From positions 1-20,287 of the IMG/VR virus record IMGVR_UViG_3300022198_002773: a stretch of 20,287 nt of DNA. One strand, 5' to 3'. Position numbers and translations under genes: made by a program. This stretch comes from a virus. This document shows, piece after piece, positions 5,963-19,625 of this stretch; the first letter of the stretch is position 1, and the number at the start of each line of letters is the position of its first letter. The notes below the pieces were generated by a model. The model was not told where the DNA came from. It saw nothing but the letters and a program-made list of their open reading frames with translations, and made no database searches.

Positions 5963-6162
5963 CAAGCGGCCTCAAGTCGCACCATGGCGCGATACAGAGC
6001 GCCATCGTCATCAAGAGACCTTACTGCGACACCGCCGATGGTGCGTAGGGCCTTGTTCACGGCAGCGAGGAAGTCCGACCGCAACTGCCCAGAGGTCACG
6101 CCGAGATCAGCGTTCGCGTTGATGGCGACCTCAAGCCGACGCAGCACCTCAGAACGTGGCAT
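5962..6162 (-). CDS. Small hypothetical virion-operon protein, 66 residues
   Basis: I start it at the ATG at 6162 (MPRSEVLRRLEVAINANADL), which has AGGA about 9 bases upstream and overlaps the end of the nozzle gene by 14 bases. A longer start at 6207 would overlap by 59 bases and add an arginine/threonine-rich tail typical of out-of-frame reading. The product looks mostly helical (SEVLRRLEVAINANA, LRSDFLAAVNKALRTIGG) with a short C-terminal strand-helix. It is coupled to the first fibre-like gene by TGATG. It could be a fibre chaperone or small connector. Nothing in it identifies a function. Confidence 0.6.
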   Translation of the reverse strand: MPRSEVLRRLEVAINANADLGVTSGQLRSDFLAAVNKALRTIGGVAVRSLDDDGALYRAMVRLEAA

Positions 6163-8062
6163 CTGTACCGTCCTGCCGCTGCCCGTGGTCCTCGTAGAAG
6201 ACCTCAAACCCCGCGATGTGAAACGGCTCGTCAGCGCCGGTCGTTGAGAAGCCGAAGCGGATGCTCTTTCCGAGCACGCTCACGTCTGTACTGTCCGTGA
6301 TATCGACCCGAACGGACCGCGTTCTGCGCGAGTCCCACGTCCTCGATGTGCCCCACACGCCATCGTTCCATGTCGTCGCGTCGCTGTCGGCCACGGCGAC
6401 CGTCGAACTCCCACGGTTCGACCGCCCATCCCACGACACCGCCCAGTCCACAGTCAGGCTGTGCGACCCGTCCTGTACGTAGTAGACGATGATGTGCGAG
6501 AACCTCTTGTCTGAACCTGGAGACTTCAAGTCGAGCCAGCGAGTCTCCCAGCGGCCCGTGTACGCGACTCCACGGATGTTCGTGTCCGCGTCCCACAACC
6601 CGAGTTCCCACTTCGACGTGCCGTCAGACGTAGACCTGAACAGCACCAGCGTCTCGCGCTTGTAGTTCATGGCGGCACCGAGGACGAAGCCAGTAAGGCG
6701 AGTGATCGCACCTGTGTCGATGTGGATCGCCCAGACCTCGTTGTTGAAGTCGGACGCGCCAGCGTTCACAGACAGCATGACTCGACGCCCCTCGCGGTCG
6801 GCCCAGCCGAAGGCGTCCTCAAGGTACGCAGGCGGCAGCAGTCGCACCCACTCGTCAAGCTCCCGCGACAGCGGCTCGGTCTGAGAGCCATCAGTGGCGA
6901 AGAACCCGTCATCGCTCAGGAAGTACACCCGACCGTCGAACTGCACAATCGCGCGGTCTGACACAGCGCCCACGCCCTGGCTGATCGGGGAAAGTACAGG
7001 GTCCTCGTTCCTGTCGTGGGACAGCAGGAAGATCGAATGCCGCTTGAACACAAGCGCATAGTCCTGCGCCACAGCCCAGCCGGTCACAACGTCCCCGTCA
7101 GACGACGACACGTCCAGCACGTTCTGCGTCGGGACCGCCTCTGGTGCGCTCAACCCGCTGTAGTAAAGAAAGGACGGCGTGTTAGCCTCGCCCCAGTAGT
7201 ACGTGCGGCCACGAAACACGAACGCGCCCTTACACACTGGCGGCGGAGAGTTCGTACCCTCGGCAGGCAGGCCGACAGTGGAAGGCTCGGACCCGTCCGG
7301 CGTGTAGTCCATCCACAACTGGCCCTTGATCCCACTGAGCCTCCGCATCAGCGTGAACGTCAGCCCGTCTGTAGCGCGGTAGAACTGCCTTGCGACCACG
7401 TTGTTCTGCTGCGGGTAGCAGTTCGACAGCACGGCGACGTTGTACAGGTAGCCAGACGAGCCAACGGCCTCATCGCTGATCGTAGCGATCACGGATGGCT
7501 CGCTCTCTTGTCCTCGGTCGTTGATGTACGTCTGGACGTAGGAGTACGTGGTCGTCGCAGAACCCTTCGCCATGGCGAGGTCCGTGAACAACTCCGTAGA
7601 CGACGCTGCGTCGATCAGGAACGGGTCAACCGGCGGAGGCGGGGCCTTGATTCCCAGCGGCGCGCCGACGTGACCGTCCCATCTGACGTTCTGCGTCTGC
7701 CCGTCAAAGAACATGATCATGTCGGCGTACTGACACGCGCGAGCCGCGTCCCGCGACCGGCGCTGCCTACGCAACCCCTCAAACACCGTATGGAGGTCGT
7801 CACCCTGTAGCAGCGCGATCTTGTCGTCGTAGGCGACGAGGATCTCAGTCGAGCCGTGGTGATGCAGTTGGTACAGGCCGAACGCGCCATTGGTCACGAA
7901 CAGCGGGTCGGTGTCGGTCCAGTCCACAAGCGGGACAATCCCCTTGACCTTCGCCACTTCGCCGCGCTGGGTGAACACGACGCCCTCTGCGTCATTGCTT
8001 GACCCGTCAGCCTGCCAGACGCGAGTATCCAAACCGGTCACGTTGACCGGCTCAAACCGCAT
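6149..8062 (-). CDS. Tail nozzle / phage stabilisation-like protein (beta-propeller type)
   Basis: This 637-residue protein forms the distal short tail beneath the adaptor in podoviruses. I chose the ATG at 8062 (MRFEPVNVTGLDTRVWQADG), with AAAGGG 7 bases before it. A TTG at 8086, directly after the adaptor stop, is the alternative and would add 8 residues. The chain is beta-rich with recurrent blade-like signatures: EILVAYDDKIALLQGDD, ADMIMFFDGQTQNVRWDG, GAFVFRGRTYYWG, DYALVFKRHSIFLLS, DGRVYFLSDDGFFATDG. These resemble nozzle proteins related to T7 gp12 and P22 gp10. Residues about 170-268 are an inserted module (YINDRGQESEPS, VVARQFYRATDG, MDYTPDGSEPSTVGLP) that also occurs in the adaptor upstream. 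The C-terminal ~150 residues look like a beta-sandwich. The nozzle assignment rests on size, blade pattern and position. Confidence 0.82.
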   Translation of the reverse strand: MRFEPVNVTGLDTRVWQADGSSNDAEGVVFTQRGEVAKVKGIVPLVDWTDTDPLFVTNGAFGLYQLHHHGSTEILVAYDDKIALLQGDDLHTVFEGLRRQRRSRDAARACQYADMIMFFDGQTQNVRWDGHVGAPLGIKAPPPPVDPFLIDAASSTELFTDLAMAKGSATTTYSYVQTYINDRGQESEPSVIATISDEAVGSSGYLYNVAVLSNCYPQQNNVVARQFYRATDGLTFTLMRRLSGIKGQLWMDYTPDGSEPSTVGLPAEGTNSPPPVCKGAFVFRGRTYYWGEANTPSFLYYSGLSAPEAVPTQNVLDVSSSDGDVVTGWAVAQDYALVFKRHSIFLLSHDRNEDPVLSPISQGVGAVSDRAIVQFDGRVYFLSDDGFFATDGSQTEPLSRELDEWVRLLPPAYLEDAFGWADREGRRVMLSVNAGASDFNNEVWAIHIDTGAITRLTGFVLGAAMNYKRETLVLFRSTSDGTSKWELGLWDADTNIRGVAYTGRWETRWLDLKSPGSDKRFSHIIVYYVQDGSHSLTVDWAVSWDGRSNRGSSTVAVADSDATTWNDGVWGTSRTWDSRRTRSVRVDITDSTDVSVLGKSIRFGFSTTGADEPFHIAGFEVFYEDHGQRQDGTDATF

Positions 8063-8086
8063 CGAGTTGCCCTTTGCGCCAGCCAA

Positions 8087-9298
8087 CTACGGACCCTGGA
8101 TCACATCGGGCCAGCCGACAGACACACCGCTGAACACGTCCCGGCTCCCGATCTCAAGGATCTTCGACCCCTCGACGGTATCCTGCCGGATCATCGTCTG
8201 GATCCCAGCCTCGAACCGCGCTTGCGGAGACCCGGCCCTCCCCTGTTCCTCAGCGGACCCGAGCATCCGCATCTCAGCTCCATCCAGCCACACGTTGTCA
8301 TACGTCGCGGGGAACAGCGGCCTGTCGTTGTCGTCGGCAAGGTCAACGCCACGGACGAGGCACACGGCTTCGATCTGGTAGACCGAACTCGGCACAGGCC
8401 ACAGCCGCAGGAACGCTTCAGAGCCGCTCTCAGGCGCTCGCGCCCCCAAGTACTCGTCAGTGGTCGCGTCGAGATACGTCGCCCCGTAGGTGGCAACGTC
8501 GCCAACGTGGTACGGCACGCTGCCGCCAACGCGACTGCGGTACACGCGGACGAGGAAGTCGCGCCTCGACGGCGGGGTGATGACGACGGAATGCTCGTTC
8601 CCGCTCTGCAAGTACGACACGGACGGAGACAACCCCGACTCCGCACCGCTCTGCTTGTCGATGTAGGACACCCAGTACAGGTACACGCCCTGCGCGGGTC
8701 CAGATCCAGAGGTGTAGTCAACGGCAGTGGGCGCTGCCACAGGCGCTGGATTCGGCTCCCTTCGGACGCAGGCGTAGCAGGTAGGCTCACCGGTCGTCGT
8801 CGGGTCCCACGCTGCTGCACGGTCAAGCGCCTCAGCCTTGAGCGTCCGCGCCCAACCTGTCCCGCTTCGCAGGATGACCTGTAGCGCGGTGTCGGCATCC
8901 AGAGGTAGCGCAACCTCGTCGTACAGGACCGTGGGCGTTTGCGACGACACAGACGCCGCGCCCCACGGAGCGTCGAGCGTCAGCGTCGTACCAGCAGAGT
9001 CCAGGTTCTGGACGCGAACCGTGGTGGACGACACCACCATCCGCTTGCCCCACAGCGTCGCAGGACCAGCGGACGTGATGGTCGCAAGGCGGGAACCCTG
9101 CGTCGCAGCGAACGTCGTGATGGACGTGGAGTCCGCCGCTGTCGTACCCATGCGGAACGTCTTGCGGAGCCAAGACCAACGCTTCCGCGACTCGATGTCG
9201 CGGCGGGCGTCGTTCAGGAATCCGTTAAGCGCAGCGTCGCTGTAGCTGCGATCCGAGCGCCGTCGCTTAAGAGACGTTCGGGCGTCTGCTAGTCGCAC
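8087..9298 (-). CDS. Head-to-tail adaptor (neck) protein with an inserted Fn3-like module
   Basis: The product has 403 residues starting MRLADARTSLKRRRSDRSYS, from a GTG with AGGAG six bases upstream. The adaptor ring joins the portal to the nozzle. The N-terminus has the usual helical layout (YSDAALNGFLNDARRDIESR then W-SWL), and the C-terminus has the matching signature (FLRLWPVPSSVYQIEAVCLV, then an Asp/Asn-rich turn, then a helix with A-E-M-R-M-L). Both resemble SU10-type phage adaptors, which are usually much shorter. Two regions are inserted: a small beta domain at about residues 60-130 and, at about 184-290, a module with YLYWVSYIDKQSGAESGLSP and DFLVRVYRSRVGG that matches one in the nozzle protein. 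The order capsid, adaptor, nozzle supports the call. The family name comes from memory of the signature and could not be checked by a search. Confidence 0.8.
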   Translation of the reverse strand: MRLADARTSLKRRRSDRSYSDAALNGFLNDARRDIESRKRWSWLRKTFRMGTTAADSTSITTFAATQGSRLATITSAGPATLWGKRMVVSSTTVRVQNLDSAGTTLTLDAPWGAASVSSQTPTVLYDEVALPLDADTALQVILRSGTGWARTLKAEALDRAAAWDPTTTGEPTCYACVRREPNPAPVAAPTAVDYTSGSGPAQGVYLYWVSYIDKQSGAESGLSPSVSYLQSGNEHSVVITPPSRRDFLVRVYRSRVGGSVPYHVGDVATYGATYLDATTDEYLGARAPESGSEAFLRLWPVPSSVYQIEAVCLVRGVDLADDNDRPLFPATYDNVWLDGAEMRMLGSAEEQGRAGSPQARFEAGIQTMIRQDTVEGSKILEIGSRDVFSGVSVGWPDVIQGP

Positions 9299-10762: not shown

Positions 10763-11848
10763 CTAGTAGATGACCGAACCGGAGAAGTCGATGGCTCCCT
10801 GCCGCTTGATGCTGGAGCACGACAGGAGGGGGTTCATGTACATGTTCACGACCAGAGCGTCCTGGTTGACCGGCTTCTGCGGCTTGTCGATCCGCAGGAT
10901 GGTCTTGGTGCTCTGCCGCAGGAAGTGGAGCTGGAAGCCGTAGCCCATGCCCTGGTTCTTCGGCATGCCGTTCAGCCCGGGGAGCGTGAACATCTCAGGC
11001 TTGATCCCGCCCTTCACGGTGCGGCCCGTGGTGGTCAGGAAGAAGATCTTGCCCGTGCCCGTCAGGTTGTCGCGGTCGTAGACCAGCGGCATCTCCTTGA
11101 ACATCACGTTGGCGTAGCCGAAGTCCGCCATGTCCTTGTCGAACAACGACTGCTTCGGGGCGAGTTCCTTCTCCAGGAAGCCGTACACCACATCGTCCGC
11201 GATGCCGATGTCGGGGTGAAGACCCTGCGAGGAGCACGCGCGGTACGTCGTGTTCATCACCTCGATGCCGTCCACGCCGAACCGAGTGATCTGGCCGTAC
11301 TTGTTCCGCCAGTTGGCGTAGGTCGCCTTGGGGAGACCGCCTGGAGTGCGCGCGTTGATCGCCTGCTGCGCCTCGGTTGCAAACTCGATGAACGTCTCGA
11401 TGCCCTTGAGTCGCTTGGCGGGCAGGGAGGTGCCGTCCCCCATCAGGTCCGCGCTGACCCCGGCGTTGAACGTGTGGAGCGTCTGGTTCTGCTTCGCCTC
11501 CGCGAGGTCGATGACCTTCTGTGGGCCGCTGTTCTCGTCCACCTCGGTCTGGTCGAGCGTCCACGAGCCACGGTACTTCGGCCACCCCTGGTAGCGGGCG
11601 GAGTCCAGGGTGTCCTCGGGCGTGATGCCGAACGACTCGTACTTCGCCACGGCACCCGTGTTCACCGAGTCCTCAAGGACGACGGGGCAGCGGATCTCAG
11701 ACCCCCCGTTCTCCACCGTGAAGGCACCGCCGCGCAGCATGTGCAGCATCAGCGGGTGAGCCCGCAGGATGTCATACGTGACCTTCGGGTTGATCTTCGG
11801 GAGGGTGGTGGCGAACAGGCCAGCCAGATCGATAGTCGCGGTCGTCAT
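10763..11848 (-). CDS. Major capsid protein (HK97-fold type)
   Basis: The product has 361 residues starting MTTATIDLAGLFATTLPKIN, with GAGGGG 10 bases before the ATG and the scaffold stop 6 bases upstream. It builds the icosahedral or prolate head shell. Typical coat features in order are an N-terminal helix with LRAHPLMLHMLRGGAFT, a beta hairpin with GGSEIRCPVVLED, an extended-loop-like segment (YESFGITPEDTLDSARYQGW then PKYRGSWTLD), a long helix (GPQKVIDLAEAKQNQTLHTF), an axial-domain-like stretch (MPLVYDRDNLTGTGKIFFLT) and a C-terminal strand (NQDALVVNMYMNPLLSCSSI). No N-terminal protease or cleavage region is evident, which fits the separate scaffold upstream. Assignment rests on pattern, length and the scaffold-capsid-decoration order. 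Confidence 0.88.
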   Translation of the reverse strand: MTTATIDLAGLFATTLPKINPKVTYDILRAHPLMLHMLRGGAFTVENGGSEIRCPVVLEDSVNTGAVAKYESFGITPEDTLDSARYQGWPKYRGSWTLDQTEVDENSGPQKVIDLAEAKQNQTLHTFNAGVSADLMGDGTSLPAKRLKGIETFIEFATEAQQAINARTPGGLPKATYANWRNKYGQITRFGVDGIEVMNTTYRACSSQGLHPDIGIADDVVYGFLEKELAPKQSLFDKDMADFGYANVMFKEMPLVYDRDNLTGTGKIFFLTTTGRTVKGGIKPEMFTLPGLNGMPKNQGMGYGFQLHFLRQSTKTILRIDKPQKPVNQDALVVNMYMNPLLSCSSIKRQGAIDFSGSVIY

Positions 11849-11854
11849 GCTGGG

Positions 11855-12622
11855 TTACCCCTCAGCGGTAGGGGCATCGCCCCATGAGTTGGAGAACTGG
11901 AAGTCAGCGCCCGGCTGGACGCCAAACTCCTGAAGAGACTGCTGGAACGCAGCCCCGAAGGAGGACGGGACGGTAGTGGCAACGCGCGAGGGCGCGGCAG
12001 CACCAGTGGGGCGAGCGGGAGGGCGCTTCGCGGGGGACGGCTTGGCGGGCGCGGAAGCCTTCGTCTCCAGTTGCGCCATGCGGATCGCAAGTCGGGCGGC
12101 GCGCTCAGGGTTCTCGGCGGCGAGTTCAGCGATGTCGGGTTCCCGCTCGAGGATCGCGCCGACAGAGCCAGCGAGACCCTTGGCGTTCACGCCCATCTCA
12201 CCGGCCACCTTGTGGTACGCGCCCACGAACTGCTGCTGCTGCTGGATCGGGCTGAGACCCTGCTGGAGCGCATCGAGCTTCGCCATCAGCGGAGCGACAG
12301 CACTCTCAACAGCCTTCTTCGCGTACCAGTTCACGTAGTCGGACGGCGAGGTCGTGGTCGGATCGGGCGGAGTCTCGGGCTCCGCAGCGACGGGCGCGGG
12401 CTCCAGTTGCCTTCCCTGCGCCTGCTGCGCGAGCAGACTGGTCAGGAACTCCACCTTCTCAGCCAGAGCAGAGATGCGCGGGTCATCCGCAGGCGCGACA
12501 GGCGCGTCAGGCGTCTCCTCCGTTTCATCTTGAACCGGAGGCGCGTCATCACCAAAACCGACAGCATCGAGGATGTCGTCGGTCTGATCGGGGTCAAGTC
12601 CCGTCTCGATGTTGTCCTGCAA
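11855..12622 (-). CDS. Capsid scaffolding protein
   Basis: This protein of about 255 residues guides capsid assembly and leaves the prohead. It is very acidic at the N-terminus (DPDQTDDILDAVGFGDDAPP), has helical coiled-coil-like segments (ISALAEKVEFLTSLLAQQAQ, AVESAVAPLMAKLDALQQGL), a Pro/Thr/Ala linker, and a basic Ala/Pro-rich stretch (KPSPAKRPPARPTG) before the C-terminus. Scaffolds often bind coat through such basic or helical C-terminal parts. It lies directly before the major capsid gene. The start is unusual. A GTG at 12628 overlaps the only GGAG, so it cannot use it. The TTG at 12622 lies 5 bases after that GGAG and is preferred. There is no in-frame ATG before the stop at 12647. Confidence 0.82.
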   Translation of the reverse strand: MQDNIETGLDPDQTDDILDAVGFGDDAPPVQDETEETPDAPVAPADDPRISALAEKVEFLTSLLAQQAQGRQLEPAPVAAEPETPPDPTTTSPSDYVNWYAKKAVESAVAPLMAKLDALQQGLSPIQQQQQFVGAYHKVAGEMGVNAKGLAGSVGAILEREPDIAELAAENPERAARLAIRMAQLETKASAPAKPSPAKRPPARPTGAAAPSRVATTVPSSFGAAFQQSLQEFGVQPGADFQFSNSWGDAPTAEG

Positions 12623-12710
12623 TGTCACTCCGAACCATTCGACGTTTCATTTTGCGCCGATGCTGATAGCCTGATGCAAGAGTCGGCACCCTGTCAACGG
12701 AGAATCTCAG
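12623..12710. promoter_or_regulatory. Divergent control region between scaffold and portal
   Basis: These 88 bases separate the leftward scaffold gene from the rightward portal gene, so they must supply start signals for at least one direction unless both are read from afar. A TTGACA hexamer is present on the minus strand at 12692-12697. No good -10 box lies 16-18 bases from it, so I do not call a sigma70 promoter. Both ribosome sites are here: GGAG for scaffold (12628-12631) and CGGAG for portal (12699-12703). The 13 bases accctgtcaacgg also occur once more in the window at 4129-4141. Confidence 0.4.
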
Positions 12711-14660
12711 ATGGCGCGAATTAAGCTGCAAGACGCAATGATCGACAAGTTCCTGACGGACATGGTGTCAGCCAAGGCCAGAATCGATGAACAGCATCTT
12801 GAGAAGTGGCGCGCGGTGGCTGACACCTACGAGGGCAAGGGGCGGTCGGAGCGGGCGGGGCTCGGCAAGAACGCCCGCGAGATCAACTTCAACTTCATCC
12901 TCTCGACCGCGAACACCATCGTGCCGTCTGTCTTGCCTACCGACCCGTACATCAGTTTCAACTCGCGCAACCCGCTCGACAAGGAGGCGGCACGGACCGC
13001 AGAGGCTGCGGTGAACTACGCCTACCGGCTCGGTCGCGCCAACAGTTCCACGACCAAGATCCTCCTCGACTGCGAGATGTTCTCGATGGGTGTCGGAAAG
13101 GTCGTCTACAACCCGGCAGGCAACGTCGTCCCCGTCATCCACTACGACCAGGATGCTGTCATCGAGTTGGACGACGACGACGACGACATCAGCGCACTCG
13201 TCTCTGATGAGATGAGCGAGGATGGATTCGACCCGTTCCTGATGGACGACGGTATCGACATTCCCACGCTTGAGCGTGTGGCCCCGTGGAACTTCCTGTA
13301 CCCCGAGGGGACCGACGACATCAACAAGTGCCCGTGGGTCGCAGAGCGCCTCCTCGTGCGCCTCGACCACCTCCGCATGTTCGACGGGTTCACCGTCAAG
13401 CCCGGGATCGTGGCGAACGAGGCCGAGTTCTCGCCTGCGGCTGGGACGCTTTCACAGGCGTTCAACTACAGGCCAAACGTCAGTGAAGACCCCGCGTTCG
13501 TCACCTTGTACGAGATCCACTACTGGGTTCGGAAGGGCCGCACCCTGCGGCGGCGGATCCTGTGGCTGCTCGACAACACGAACGCCACCGGGTTCGACCG
13601 CGTAGTGCGGCACACAGAGGACGACAGCGGAATGCGCGGCTATCCGTTCGTGATGCTTCGCACCGTGGTCAACCCGGGGAAGATGTGCGAGCCGGATATC
13701 GCTGACTTGGCAGCTATTCACCCCATCGCGGAGCGTCTGAACGACGAGTTGTCTGCCGTCCTTCGCCACCACAGGCAGGCGAGCAAGCAGAAGTACGCCA
13801 CCGTCCCCGGCGTACTCAGCGGTGACTCCCAGCTGGAGGCGATGCTCGCCTCAGATAGAGACATGGCAGTCGCGGAACTCCCGGCGCAGCTAACGGACGT
13901 GAGGCAGGCGCTTCAACTCATCCCCATCGCCCCGATGCCGAACGACGTGCCGTTCATCCTCCAGATGCTCCAGCGGCTCATGTACGAGGTCGGCGGAGTG
14001 GACGTGTTCCAGCGCGGAGGTGTAGCGCGGAAGGGCACGACAGCCACCGAGGTCGCGGTCGCCTCCCAGTCCTTCCAGAACAGGGCTGCTGTCCGCAAGC
14101 GCGCCGTCGAACAGTTCATTGAGGACGTGGCGCGCAGGTTCCTCGACTGCATGCGCCGCTACTGGACCGCGCCCGTATGGATCCGAGGAGCCGGGACCGG
14201 CGACGAAGCGCACGTCGAGGTCAGCGCAGAGATGATGCGCGGCGCGTTCGACATCACCGCGTCCGTCTCCGAGTTCGACCCGAACGAGCAGACCAACGAA
14301 CTTCAGGCGTTCAACGGTCTGCTCCAGACCATCGCAGCGACGACACAGACCATGCTGCCACTGGTGCAGAGTCAGGTGCTTCCTGCTGACACCATCACCA
14401 ACTTCATTGCCAAGGCGTTCGACCTGTGGAAGCAGGACAAGCGGAGACTCATCGGCCCGCTGTCGTCCATGGCGAACCCCATCGCGTCTGCGTCAGGCGC
14501 TCCAGCGAACGCCGCCCCGCCTGGCGAGCCAGCCCCTGGCGAGGACGCAGAGGCCGCAGAGATCGACGGAAACGGATTCGCCCCTGGAATGGGGACGCTA
14601 CTCGGGCTGGCGGGGACTGGACCCCGACCAGGCGCGGGGCAACCTGTGGAGGGTTTCTAG
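12711..14660 (+). CDS. Portal protein
   Basis: The product has 649 residues starting MARIKLQDAMIDKFLTDMVS, with CGGAG 7 bases before the ATG. The portal dodecamer at one head vertex is the channel for DNA packaging and exit. The sequence has the podoviral portal layout: an N-terminal helical part (INFNFILSTANTIVPSVLPT), a wing with VAPWNFLYPEGTDD and LYEIHYWVRKGRTLRRRILW, a clip/stem region with LHPIAERLNDELSAVLRHHR-like text at about 345-360, an acidic/hydrophobic segment around IPIAPMPNDVPFILQMLQRL, then the long helical crown with ATEVAVASQSFQNRAAVRKR. Residues 154-159 are six Asp within an acidic insertion (about 150-190) that I do not expect in relatives. The C-terminus is Ala/Pro/Gly-rich. 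It is on the strand opposite to the other head genes, and the next gene begins directly at its stop. Confidence 0.88.
   Translation: MARIKLQDAMIDKFLTDMVSAKARIDEQHLEKWRAVADTYEGKGRSERAGLGKNAREINFNFILSTANTIVPSVLPTDPYISFNSRNPLDKEAARTAEAAVNYAYRLGRANSSTTKILLDCEMFSMGVGKVVYNPAGNVVPVIHYDQDAVIELDDDDDDISALVSDEMSEDGFDPFLMDDGIDIPTLERVAPWNFLYPEGTDDINKCPWVAERLLVRLDHLRMFDGFTVKPGIVANEAEFSPAAGTLSQAFNYRPNVSEDPAFVTLYEIHYWVRKGRTLRRRILWLLDNTNATGFDRVVRHTEDDSGMRGYPFVMLRTVVNPGKMCEPDIADLAAIHPIAERLNDELSAVLRHHRQASKQKYATVPGVLSGDSQLEAMLASDRDMAVAELPAQLTDVRQALQLIPIAPMPNDVPFILQMLQRLMYEVGGVDVFQRGGVARKGTTATEVAVASQSFQNRAAVRKRAVEQFIEDVARRFLDCMRRYWTAPVWIRGAGTGDEAHVEVSAEMMRGAFDITASVSEFDPNEQTNELQAFNGLLQTIAATTQTMLPLVQSQVLPADTITNFIAKAFDLWKQDKRRLIGPLSSMANPIASASGAPANAAPPGEPAPGEDAEAAEIDGNGFAPGMGTLLGLAGTGPRPGAGQPVEGF
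13170..13187 (+). repeat. (GAC)6 trinucleotide repeat in the portal gene
   Basis: Six uninterrupted GAC codons encode Asp154-Asp159 of the portal. A pure codon run could vary in length by slippage. It lies in a strongly acidic segment with few structural constraints visible in the sequence. Confidence 0.85.
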
Positions 14661-15221
14661 ATGCTGTACGTGTTCAAGTGTCAGAAGGCGACGTGCGGGG
14701 TGAAGTTCGAGGAGGCGATGCCGCTGTCTCGCTACGAGAAGTTGCTGGCGATGGACCCGCCGCTCTACGAGGTCATGTGTCCCGTGTGTCACACGAAGGC
14801 TCCACAGCGCCACTTCGATGCCGAGTCTGCCCCTGCCTACCACCGCGACGTGGGCACGTGGGATCCGCGAACCGCGCCGACCGCGCTCGCGGGGAAGTCG
14901 TGGAACAGCGCAGACGAGAAGAAGGCGCAGGTTCGCGATGTGCTCGGTGACGGGTTTGCTGTGGGCGAGGTGGACCGGGACAAGACCGTCAAGGCCAAGA
15001 GCAGCGAGACGAAGCGCACTCTCGCCAAGGACGCCAAGCCGTCGAAGTCCCCGGTGAACGTGCGCGGCGCTGTGGCTCAAGCGGTGAAGCCGGGTGTCGC
15101 GTTCCGTATCGCAGACCTCGCGCGTGAGATCGGGGCGAAGTACCAGCCCGTCTACGCCGCAGTCATCCGGCTACCCGGAGTCGAGAAGGTGTCGCCAGGC
15201 GAGTACATGCTGTCCGCATGA
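14661..15221 (+). CDS. Zinc-ribbon plus winged-helix-like protein linked to portal
   Basis: The product has 186 residues starting MLYVFKCQKATCGVKFEEAM. Its ATG follows the portal TAG with no gap, and GTGGAGGG lies upstream, so the two are co-expressed. Cys7, Cys12, Cys40 and Cys43 (CPVC) form a zinc-ribbon pattern like FmdB-type small ribbons. A basic linker (about 93-130) rich in Lys leads to a C-terminal segment, FRIADLAREIGAKYQPVYAA then VIRLPGVEKVSPGEYML, with the helix-turn-helix then strand-turn-strand pattern of a winged helix. This suggests nucleic-acid binding: a transcription factor, or an accessory protein at the portal or terminase. The role is inferred. Its stop is one base from the terL stop on the other strand. 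Confidence 0.75.
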   Translation: MLYVFKCQKATCGVKFEEAMPLSRYEKLLAMDPPLYEVMCPVCHTKAPQRHFDAESAPAYHRDVGTWDPRTAPTALAGKSWNSADEKKAQVRDVLGDGFAVGEVDRDKTVKAKSSETKRTLAKDAKPSKSPVNVRGAVAQAVKPGVAFRIADLAREIGAKYQPVYAAVIRLPGVEKVSPGEYMLSA

Positions 15222-15222
15222 C

Positions 15223-17205
15223 CTACTGGTAGACGAACCCCGCGGCGGCGGCGTCGGCCTCATCTGCCTCGACAGCAGCGACCTCCCACATCTCCTCTGT
15301 CCACGTCCTTGCGTCGTAGGGGTCTGGGGCGTCCTCCTTCGGGCGCTTGTTCAGCCGACCGCTGTAGTGGGCCACGGCGCACCCGATGATGACGCTCATC
15401 GCATCGTCGTCGTGCATGCCTGACGGGGCTCCGATCTTGAGCATCCGAGTCCCATCAGCGTCACTCTTGACCACGGCGGCTCGGAGGGCGCGCAGTTCGT
15501 CCAGCGCGTTCCTCGACCGGATCTTGATGTACTTCTCGCGGAAAGCCTTCGTGGCGAGGCCGACAGCGGCGTTCTTGCTGGACGACGTGGTGCTCCACCC
15601 GAGGAGTGCTGTCGGTGACGAACCGACCTGATTCACCACCTTGCGCCGATACAGGTTGTAGTACCGCGTGTGGTACAGCATGGCGATCAACCCCTGACCA
15701 GCGCCAGTGCTCTCAGGCACCAGCACGGCGCGGTTGTAGTAGATGGCAATCAGCATCAGAATGTCGGCGTAGTAGACCTGATCTACCTTCCCGCGCCAGC
15801 CAGCGACCTGATCAAGCGTCTCCTCATCGAACACGGTAACGGAGTCGTAGTCCCCGTCCTCGTGACCAGCAGCAACGTCGGCTGAAACGATGTACCTGCG
15901 ACGAGGCTCAGGCTTCGCCCACACCGAGAACGAACCCTGACCAGGCATCGCTGGCACAAGCTCTGGCTTGTACGTCGTCCACAGCCGCTCGTACTTGTCA
16001 GGCGACCACCCCGACGAATCCACGATCTCGTACCACTGGTGCTCAGGGCACGAATGGAACGAGCCTGGGTCGAAGCCGTTGTAGGGCTCGCACACATCGC
16101 ACGAGCAAACGTGGGCGCGCTCCTGATACTCCATGTCGCTCGCATCAAACACAAGGCGACCTGTGCTGCCGAAAGCCTCCTCGTCAGTGCTCGGGTACTG
16201 CTGGCGGAAGCCTCCGACATCACCTCCGCACTTCGTAGCGATTGTCTCTCTTCGCCACTGGAGACCCTCAAGCGTCACGAAGTCTTTGAAACGGTCGAGC
16301 AGGTCGAGTTCGTCAGGCGACAGCGACTTGCGGAACTCGGCCTCGGAGACCTTGAGAGGCTTCCTGTACTCCGTCATCAGGAACCACGGCGTGAAGATCA
16401 CGTACCACTGGCTGTCCTGGTCCCCGGGGTACTTCTCCTTGAGCGGCATCCACGGTGGGATGTCGCCACCGAACACCTTGCCGTTGCAGTACATCTCGTG
16501 GTGGTAGTCGCCGCCGCCCTCGCAGGTTGACTCCACGTACACGAACGAGTCAGGCGTGTCAGGCACAGCCTGGAGCATGTTGAGCATGAACTCGCGCGGG
16601 TTGTTGTACAGCGCGATCTCGGAGACGTGGACCTTTCGAGCCGTAATGCCGTTGGCCGAGGTCGTCTCGCGCGGAAGGACGACGTTGAACCGCGACCGAA
16701 GCCCCTCGGCTCCAGCCGGGGCTCGGAAGTCCAGCGCGGTCCTGTTGTCGTACTTCTTCTTCGGTTGAAGGCTCGACGGCAGATGCTCGTAGAACAACTT
16801 CGACTTCGTGAAGATCTCGTGAACGGTGTCAGCGTTGTGCGCCACGACCAGCGCCGTCTCGTCAAACGAGGTCACGCACTGGTGGAACAGATACCCCTGA
16901 ACGAACGTAGAACAGCCAGTCTGCCGCGCCTTGGCCTCCCACACCCTGACCGGCTCGCCAGCCGCCTGGATGCTCGTGATCAGCTCCCAGCGGATCTGCT
17001 GCGGAAGGTTGAAGTCAAGCGGCTCAAATGTCCCAGCCTTTGTCTGAATGCGTAGATGCTCGGAAGCAAAGACGGGGTAGTCCGCATGGCGTCCCGAAGT
17101 GAGCACCGACTCAGCCGATCCAGGAGGCGCGGATCGAGCTTCCGAGGAAGCATTCGCTCTCGACGCCTTGGTCTCATCCGGTTCTCTGTTTCGACCTCGT
17201 GCCAA
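15223..17205 (-). CDS. terL: Large terminase subunit (DNA packaging ATPase and nuclease)
   Basis: This protein cuts concatemeric DNA and pumps it through the portal. In a 660-residue reading from the TTG at 17205, the motifs are: Walker A-like EAKARQTGCST (about 91-100), Walker B-like KVHVSEIALY with catalytic Glu196, coupling motif VESTCEG (224-230), and the RNase H-like nuclease with Asp443 (SADVAAG), Glu498 (VPESTGAGQG) and Asp599/600 (HDDDAMS). Between the two domains lies CSCDVC plus SCPEH (Cys367, 369, 372, 386), a possible zinc site. The start is uncertain. TTG 17205 has GAGG 7 bases upstream, GTG 17355 would give 710 residues with a weak site, and GTG 17106 would give 627. All three overlap the upstream gene. 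The gene converges on the portal cassette. Confidence 0.93.
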   Translation of the reverse strand: MARGRNREPDETKASRANASSEARSAPPGSAESVLTSGRHADYPVFASEHLRIQTKAGTFEPLDFNLPQQIRWELITSIQAAGEPVRVWEAKARQTGCSTFVQGYLFHQCVTSFDETALVVAHNADTVHEIFTKSKLFYEHLPSSLQPKKKYDNRTALDFRAPAGAEGLRSRFNVVLPRETTSANGITARKVHVSEIALYNNPREFMLNMLQAVPDTPDSFVYVESTCEGGGDYHHEMYCNGKVFGGDIPPWMPLKEKYPGDQDSQWYVIFTPWFLMTEYRKPLKVSEAEFRKSLSPDELDLLDRFKDFVTLEGLQWRRETIATKCGGDVGGFRQQYPSTDEEAFGSTGRLVFDASDMEYQERAHVCSCDVCEPYNGFDPGSFHSCPEHQWYEIVDSSGWSPDKYERLWTTYKPELVPAMPGQGSFSVWAKPEPRRRYIVSADVAAGHEDGDYDSVTVFDEETLDQVAGWRGKVDQVYYADILMLIAIYYNRAVLVPESTGAGQGLIAMLYHTRYYNLYRRKVVNQVGSSPTALLGWSTTSSSKNAAVGLATKAFREKYIKIRSRNALDELRALRAAVVKSDADGTRMLKIGAPSGMHDDDAMSVIIGCAVAHYSGRLNKRPKEDAPDPYDARTWTEEMWEVAAVEADEADAAAAGFVYQ

Positions 17206-17858
17206 GTCTGAGCCTCGTAGGGGTAGCCGGTCCACGGGTTGATCCCGTTGAAGTAGTCGATCCCAATTGACTTGAGCAGCTCGGTTGGGATCCTGCAACC
17301 ACGCCGTCGCAACAGCAGGACGCTCGCACCACGCAAGCACCTGTTTGTCGGCCACGGATCAGCCGCCAGTTCGACGCCGTTGTCGCGCATGAACTCAGCC
17401 ATCTCGATGACGTAGTACCAGGGCACCCACGACTGGCGGAACTCAGAGCCGCCCCAGACGCTTCGGGTGACCAGCTCGACCGCCTGATAGTCCACGAGAG
17501 TCCGGTACAACTGCACGTAGATCTTCGGCACACCCAGGGTCCACGCTGCGATCTCCTCAGACACCATGTCGCGGCAAACAGACAGCCACACCGTGCCGCG
17601 CTTGTCATGAACGTCGGCCACGGGGCAATGGTCTGGGATGGGGCAACCCCAGACCCGACGACCGTCAATCCCCATCCAGCGCATCGAAGGAAGCACGTCT
17701 CCGTGCATCGCAATGAGGAACTCCCGTCGCCACCGGTCGCCACGAGGAACCCGGCCAAACCCAGTCCAGTCCCCTATGCGCTCGACAGCCTTCGGCGGGG
17801 CAACGACTGTCGGAGTGGTCGCCAGATCCCGTGCCGCTGACTCGAGCCACCAGGACAC
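16980..17858 (-). CDS. Unknown protein before terL; possible small terminase
   Basis: I start this 292-residue product at a GTG at 17858 with CAGGGA 5 bases upstream, one base after the lipoprotein stop. An earlier ATG at 17993 would overlap that gene by over 130 bases. Residues 1-230 look real and conserved in character: VERIGDWTGFGRVPRGDRWR, IDGRRVWGCPIPDHCPVADV, WVPWYYVIEMAEFMRDNGVE, IGIDYFNGINPWTGYPYEAQ. SEEIAAWTLGVPKIYVQLYR fits a helix-turn-helix (A-x3-LGV-x3-YV), which with the position beside terL makes a small-terminase role possible but unproven. The last 60 residues turn Arg/Ser-rich, and the frame runs 226 bases or more into terL in another phase. A frameshift or earlier true end is possible. 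Confidence 0.55.
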   Translation of the reverse strand: MSWWLESAARDLATTPTVVAPPKAVERIGDWTGFGRVPRGDRWRREFLIAMHGDVLPSMRWMGIDGRRVWGCPIPDHCPVADVHDKRGTVWLSVCRDMVSEEIAAWTLGVPKIYVQLYRTLVDYQAVELVTRSVWGGSEFRQSWVPWYYVIEMAEFMRDNGVELAADPWPTNRCLRGASVLLLRRRGCRIPTELLKSIGIDYFNGINPWTGYPYEAQTWHEVETENRMRPRRRERMLPRKLDPRLLDRLSRCSLRDAMRTTPSLLPSIYAFRQRLGHLSRLTSTFRSRSAGS

Positions 17859-17859
17859 G

Positions 17860-18120
17860 CTATCCCTGCTGGCAGATCGGCTGCGTCTCGGTGTGTCCGA
17901 TGTAGAACCACCCAGCAGGGCACGCCATCCCGGCTGCGTTCGTGATGTCGGCAGCGCCAGACCCGGCGTCCTCTGCGTCCACCACGCCGTCACCGTTCAC
18001 GTCCGACCGGAAGAACGTCATCACGCACAACGAACCACCGTTCGCGCCAGCAGGCCCGACGCCCACGCAGGCGCACAGCCCGAGGGCCAGAAAGAACACC
18101 GCAGTCAGTCCGTACTTCAT
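17860..18120 (-). CDS. Small secreted lipoprotein-like protein with a dockerin-type calcium loop
   Basis: I start this 86-residue product at the ATG at 18120, with AAGGGG 8 bases upstream. A longer frame from 18252 reads through the preceding gene. Residues 1-18 (MKYGLTAVFFLALGLCAC) form a signal peptide. Cys18, after Leu-Cys-Ala, fits a lipobox, while Cys16 after Leu-Gly-Leu fits less well. Residues 40-51 (DVNGDGVVDAED) match the dockerin/EF-hand consensus D-x-N-x-D-G-x-x-D-x-x-D exactly. Further cysteines at about 32, 67 and 83 could form disulfides outside the membrane. It sits where T7-like phages carry spanin genes, so an outer-spanin or envelope role is conceivable. Superinfection exclusion is the other common role for phage lipoproteins. 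Neither is shown by the sequence. Confidence 0.68.
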   Translation of the reverse strand: MKYGLTAVFFLALGLCACVGVGPAGANGGSLCVMTFFRSDVNGDGVVDAEDAGSGAADITNAAGMACPAGWFYIGHTETQPICQQG

Positions 18121-19087: not shown

Positions 19088-19302
19088 CAGGTCACCTCGG
19101 TGAACGAGGCGACCACCACCCACGCAGAACCGGAAGACTGCACAGGGCGGATGAACGAGTCGCAGCAACTCGCCCGGTACACAGTACTGCGGTCCACCTT
19201 TCCGGTGATCGGACAAGGGGCGGACCAGTCCACGAGGCCCGAGATCCCCGTGTCCCCATGGCACGCAGGGCACTCGACATGAGCAGTCTCTGAGCGCCGC
19301 AT
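19087..19302 (-). CDS. Cysteine-rich zinc-ribbon-like protein, 71 residues
   Basis: The ATG at 19302 has GGGGAG six bases upstream and overlaps the stop of the ribbon-helix-helix gene as TGATG. It couples the same way to the next gene. The sequence starts MRRSETAHVECPACHGDTGI. Cys11, Cys14, Cys30 and the pair Cys46-Cys47 could bind zinc, and CPACHGDTG resembles one half of a DnaJ-type or treble-clef ribbon. The C-terminal half is beta-rich (SGSAWVVVASFTEVT). It is probably a small regulatory or nucleic-acid-associated protein, an inference from the ribbon and the operon. Confidence 0.65.
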   Translation of the reverse strand: MRRSETAHVECPACHGDTGISGLVDWSAPCPITGKVDRSTVYRASCCDSFIRPVQSSGSAWVVVASFTEVT

Positions 19303-19625
19303 CACACACTCCCCTCGTAGGGGTCCTCGCCAGCGAGCGCGCACGCCCCGACGTGGATCAGGTCGTCCAGCCGCCGCTCAACGTCCTCGGACCAGCCAGG
19401 AGGCAGAGCAGCGGCCACACCGGCCAACTTGCCCTGGATCTCCTCGACCATCTCCAGAGCCTCCTCAAGCCAGTCGGCAGGGATGACCCGACCTCGGGCC
19501 ACGGCGAGCACGCACTCCCTAACGTAGCGGGCCTCGGTCATCGACTTCCGCTCCGAGGCCGCAGCGAGTTCGGCGCGCTCCTCCAGGCTCATCTTCATCT
19601 CGACCCGGCTATTTCGCTTCGTCAT
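19302..19625 (-). CDS. Ribbon-helix-helix DNA-binding protein, probable autoregulator
   Basis: This 107-residue product has an Arc/MetJ/CopG-type N-terminus. The strand NSRVEMKMS (5-13) is followed by helix LEERAELAAASERKS (14-28) and helix TEARYVRECVLAVARGR (30-46). In this family two strands from a dimer enter the DNA major groove. A C-terminal helical part follows (WLEEALEMVEEIQGKLAGVA), possibly for oligomerisation, then an acidic tail. Five copies of ACCGGCTATTT-like sites lie between 19605 and 19733 over the start codon and upstream region, strongly suggesting it represses its own operon. The ATG at 19625 lacks a clear Shine-Dalgarno, so translation may be weak or nearly leaderless. MobC-like relatives are possible, but no mobilisation genes are visible. 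Confidence 0.78.
   Translation of the reverse strand: MTKRNSRVEMKMSLEERAELAAASERKSMTEARYVRECVLAVARGRVIPADWLEEALEMVEEIQGKLAGVAAALPPGWSEDVERRLDDLIHVGACALAGEDPYEGSV

Follow-up and report, generated by a model that had tools for sequence, protein, structure and literature searches.

A phage head requires 12 copies of the portal protein alongside capsid subunits that number in the hundreds, and to our knowledge the means by which phages maintain the portal to capsid ratio are poorly understood. A portal gene that is opposed to its capsid gene has been described in phage P2 (Peduovirus, NC_001895). P2 carries the portal gene Q and the large terminase gene P (terL) on one strand and the scaffold gene O, the capsid gene N and the TerS gene M on the other. 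Its short divergent control region contains a single activator site which serves both promoters. Divergent starts with −10-like symmetry in a short gap are also found in the bidirectional promoters of Escherichia coli. These show no competition at basal expression, but strong activation of one side can bring the two into competition; noise is lowered as well (PMC12825309). Searches of an open library gave no previous description of a portal inversion of the kind reported below, which is weak evidence of absence.

The window analyzed here is an entire IMG/VR record (IMGVR_UViG_3300022198_002773; 20,287 bases) from a lineage of uncultivated short-tailed, podovirus-like phages. Its portal gene (12,711–14,660, plus strand) encodes 649 amino acids and matches the Pfam family SU10_portal (PF23899; E = 1.7e-14; 53.6 bits against a gathering cut-off of 30), the PHROG portal families 1216 and 156 and, through a profile of the clade, solved portals in the PDB (best E = 4e-10). 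It is followed on the same strand by a gene (14,661–15,221) for a 186-residue protein with a zinc ribbon and a predicted winged helix. These two genes are the only recognizable plus-strand genes in the window; all other recognizable genes are on the minus strand. Differences between the portal genes of the window and relative L022 amount to 0.23, 0.17 and 0.57 at codon positions 1, 2 and 3, respectively, the pattern of protein-coding evolution on the plus strand.

On one side of this cassette, the minus-strand genes begin with the scaffold gene (11,855–12,628), the first of the capsid-tail unit, which starts with a GTG codon at 12,628. The scaffold itself has no significant family match and was identified by its position and by a relative in L033 that matches the head scaffolding family phrog_3927 (E = 4.7e-11). 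The same strand carries the major capsid protein (MCP; 10,763–11,848; phrog_9953, E = 2.3e-30; no PDB match by profile), the adaptor or neck protein (8,087–9,298; Pfam SU10_adaptor, E = 1.8e-6), a nozzle or tail-tube-like virion protein (6,149–8,086; PHROG virion structural and internal virion families, E of about 1e-10 to 1e-13) and other tail-region genes. On the other side are terL (15,223–17,355; PHROG 2, E = 9e-16; T4 gp17, E = 3.7e-10 with a clade profile), whose true start, judged by its relatives, is probably near 17,268, and the genes upstream of it. Among the latter, an ORF at 16,980–17,993 (minus strand) has no PHROG match and its family was not recognized; its position makes it a possible small terminase. 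An initial annotation had reported the portal and zinc-ribbon genes on the plus strand inside a minus-strand head cluster, and both ORFs are located where it placed them. It correctly counted a single base (15,222) between the convergent stops of the zinc-ribbon gene and terL. The 88 bases it gave between the scaffold start and the portal are in fact 82 (12,629–12,710), and it recognized the zinc ribbon of the partner protein while missing the predicted C-terminal winged helix.

Further IMG/VR contigs were gathered by profile searches with the portal, terL and MCP, and their portals were clustered at 95% amino acid identity, giving 45 clusters with outgroups included. The orientation of the scaffold or MCP could be assigned in 38 ingroup clusters, and the portal is opposed to the scaffold or capsid in every one of them. 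Counted over redundant loci with a portal and a scaffold or MCP, the opposed layout is present in 159 of 164, and the five exceptions are outgroups. The zinc-ribbon gene is co-oriented with the portal and lies directly behind it in all clusters scored for this feature (42/42). Portal identity to the window falls as low as about 36% among these relatives, hence the opposed state is old. Reversal of the portal is common to the lineage and stable: its divergence from the scaffold is fixed across the ingroup, and the portal has never reverted.

The window is a single metagenomic contig, and the initial annotation had raised the possibility of misassembly; a flipping, phase-variable segment was considered as well. 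Misassembly is ruled out by another contig that matches the window at 99.92% identity across 14,361 bp and crosses both cassette junctions, and by the common layout of 38 diverged clusters. Phase-variable inversion was rejected because the cassette is not flanked by long inverted repeats with matched arms at both ends. The probability left to either possibility is negligible, and the arrangement is real, as the annotation had supposed.

The annotation also regarded an opposed portal as unusual for tailed phages, a view that is weakened by P2, in which the portal is likewise opposed to the scaffold and capsid. P2 has a short divergent control region with its activator site, and the present clade a short divergent gap with a conserved box of putative regulatory role. 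The two differ in the placement of terL, which in P2 precedes the portal on the portal strand, whereas here it is usually on the capsid strand. Even in the L024 and L185 clades, which have terL on the portal strand as in P2, it is downstream of the portal. Unlike in P2, the portal of the clade is first on its strand and is succeeded by the zinc-ribbon/winged-helix gene. The portal also belongs to a different family, the Pfam and PHROG matches include no P2 family, and the partner protein does not match the family of Ogr, the zinc-finger activator of P2. The layout thus resembles the divergent head region of P2 in the way it would work, yet it is not a member of that group. Podoviruses of the SU10 (Kuravirus) type are related in another manner, through their virion proteins: both the portal and the adaptor fall into Pfam families named for SU10, a remote similarity at the level of protein families.

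The origin of the opposed layout can be traced through co-oriented relatives. Portal, scaffold and MCP genes in that order on one strand are found only in L138–L140, L142 and the phage record ct52p938 (MW202803). On the portal tree, orientation requires one change and the co-oriented L142, L138 and L080 fall outside the clade, although the branch that separates them has moderate support (86/62). This tree, together with the restriction of the co-oriented layout to outgroups, bears out the suggestion in the initial annotation that an inversion was fixed in the lineage. The IMG/VR lineages L142 and L138 have a portal related to that of the window at 32%, as well as related scaffold and MCP, but differ in having all genes on one strand. 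In L142 the order is terL, portal, zinc-ribbon gene, scaffold and MCP, and the third of these is a full-length homolog of the zinc-ribbon/winged-helix gene of the window (E = 5e-14), likewise found behind the portal. A single in-place inversion of the portal/zinc-ribbon pair in this order yields the observed map exactly. An ancestor would have carried terL, portal, zinc-ribbon gene, scaffold and capsid on one strand, and the two-gene block would have been inverted in place once and then retained. The polarity of this change draws on two co-oriented metagenomic lineages, whose terL shows no recognizable relationship to that of the clade, and a very long-branched third.

Other relatives are more distant. 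In ct52p938 the scaffold and MCP are related and the portal remotely so, but all genes are on one strand and a small cysteine-rich gene precedes the portal; this gene was rejected as a homolog of the cassette gene since it gave no profile match. The nearest isolates by terL, at about 25% identity, are CRP-7, ctuNt529 and Vibrio phage 1.205.O, which have terL, the gene at the portal position and the capsid-region genes all on one strand. The terL of L142 (5,101–6,603 of that contig) is not recognizably related to the terL of the clade, which points to an exchange of terL along the part of the tree where the inversion took place. A prophage-based host search found no relative of terL or the portal among genome contigs.

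The orientation of terL is less constant than that of the portal. It is opposed to the portal in 35 clusters and lies on the portal strand, downstream of the portal, in two separate clades that comprise L024, L131, L144, L185 and L187. The breakpoints differ, with terL alone inverted in L024 and the upstream ORF and terL co-inverted in L185 and L187, so in-place inversions have occurred repeatedly. The order of head genes can therefore be rearranged by clean and repeated in-place inversions, though this region is normally treated as fixed synteny. Since two subclades have turned terL away, its convergence with the cassette is not the conserved part of the layout; divergence from the scaffold is. 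This observation makes it highly improbable that convergence is the point of the arrangement, with antisense overlap at the 3′ end of terL mutually damping the terL and portal messages. In favor of such damping, as judged from sequence, the stops abut or overlap in all convergent members measured, with a gap of 0–1 nt in the window, L022 and L021 and an overlap of 16–44 nt in the others, and no terminator-like site was found at the junction between the cassette and terL in the window. The two subclades that lost terL convergence, however, still have the portal opposed to the scaffold.

The divergent gap is AT-richer than its surroundings, with a GC content of 52% compared to 64% in the window. 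It contains the hexamer TTGACA (12,692–12,697, minus strand), a −35-like box that faces the scaffold and lies about 14 nt ahead of the portal ATG. An exact TTGACA toward the scaffold, mostly 14–15 nt ahead of the portal start and with diverged flanks, is present in 35 of the 38 lineages, the exceptions being L043, L185 and L192. The 20-kb window contains four copies of this hexamer when both strands are counted. At a spacer of 20 nt, the −10 score exceeds the 99th percentile of a circular-shift null (22 lineages). The corresponding −10-like hexamer of the window, GGCTAT (12,666–12,671, minus strand), is weak and tentative, and its 20-nt spacing from TTGACA compares with the usual 17 nt for sigma-70. 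A scan for consensus sigma-70 promoters between 11,700 and 18,100 returned none, no consistent second copy of the late-promoter motif was found elsewhere in these genomes, and an Rfam search of the window gave no matches.

Evidence for a promoter facing the portal comes from a mirrored −10-like hexamer, which also exceeds the null, at the same place, across 22 lineages. Given the symmetry of −10 elements, the mirrored score is not independent of the first and could merely reflect that symmetry. In its predicted divergent starts and −10-like symmetry within a short gap, the locus is similar to the bidirectional promoters of E. coli; it differs in that the starts are predicted here from conservation alone and at a spacing of 20 nt. 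Hairpins of differing sequence are found just ahead of the scaffold ribosome site in L054, L045, L123, L068 and others, but not in the window. A scaffold-leader hairpin was rejected as a conserved element, as the results were inconsistent against shuffles (z < −1 in only 10 of 22; z = +0.65 in the window).

Inversion of the cassette most likely split the head region into two divergent late units. Upstream of the portal, the window has no recognizable gene on the plus strand, so transcription of the portal would have to start within the gap or close to it. It is fairly probable that the inversion, having occurred once, was kept with back-to-back promoters in the gap that uncouple the dose of the portal from that of the capsid. 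One unit would comprise the portal and zinc-ribbon genes and the other the scaffold, capsid and neck and tail genes, with both starting in the gap from the conserved −35-like TTGACA for the scaffold and a putative overlapping promoter on the portal side. The two start sites would share about 80–140 bp in the majority of members, and a strongly activated capsid side could therefore hold down the portal side. The result would be a low and even output of the portal that is not tied to capsid output. Separate control of the portal dose, as posited in the initial annotation, is plausible: no gene of the cassette precedes the portal, and the conserved element in the gap faces the scaffold.

A real inversion with no regulatory meaning, neutral and now hard to undo as the promoters and overlapping stops have adapted, is a possible but unlikely account. 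That terL has flipped twice and in-place inversions recur suggests that changes of orientation are tolerated. Yet against two flips of terL, the portal has not reverted in any of the 38 scorable clusters, and the divergent gap retains a specific DNA box in 35 of 38 lineages. A more elaborate proposal is unlikely on the whole. It holds that polymerase competition at an overlapping divergent promoter fixes the ratio of the 12-copy portal to the many-copy capsid and lowers cell-to-cell noise under lineage-wide selection, with the zinc-ribbon/winged-helix protein as regulator. If the portal and capsid are permanently uncoupled, as favored here, the clade and its co-oriented relatives offer a natural experiment in which the effect of gene order on their ratio can be weighed against that of a separate promoter.

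The zinc ribbon of the partner protein includes four invariant cysteines (C7, C12, C40 and C43), and AF2 predicts a C-terminal winged helix at residues 134–184. This combination marks the protein as a candidate DNA-binding protein. By analogy to Ogr of P2, it has been considered as a regulator that would bind the gap and switch one or both late units. Its predicted architecture, the use in P2 of a single activator site for its two divergent head promoters, and the nearly fixed place and unusual spacing of TTGACA are all consistent with such a role, which nevertheless is rather unlikely. The protein has no Ogr family match, and Foldseek matches to winged-helix DNA-binding domains are weak (best E = 0.026). 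Moreover, its gene is already behind the portal in the co-oriented L142, so its link to the portal predates the divergent gap. A role in the portal or packaging is accordingly at least as likely as divergent control, and the protein may serve as a factor in packaging or in assembly.

Two other features were observed. A small ORF at 19,302–19,625 (minus strand) has a sub-threshold match to NikA-like mobilization proteins and is probably a ribbon-helix-helix regulator. terL contains a Cys/His cluster (CxCxxC...CPxH) that is invariant across the clade, at about residues 388–410 of the first aligned sequence, and this cluster is possibly a zinc-binding insertion.
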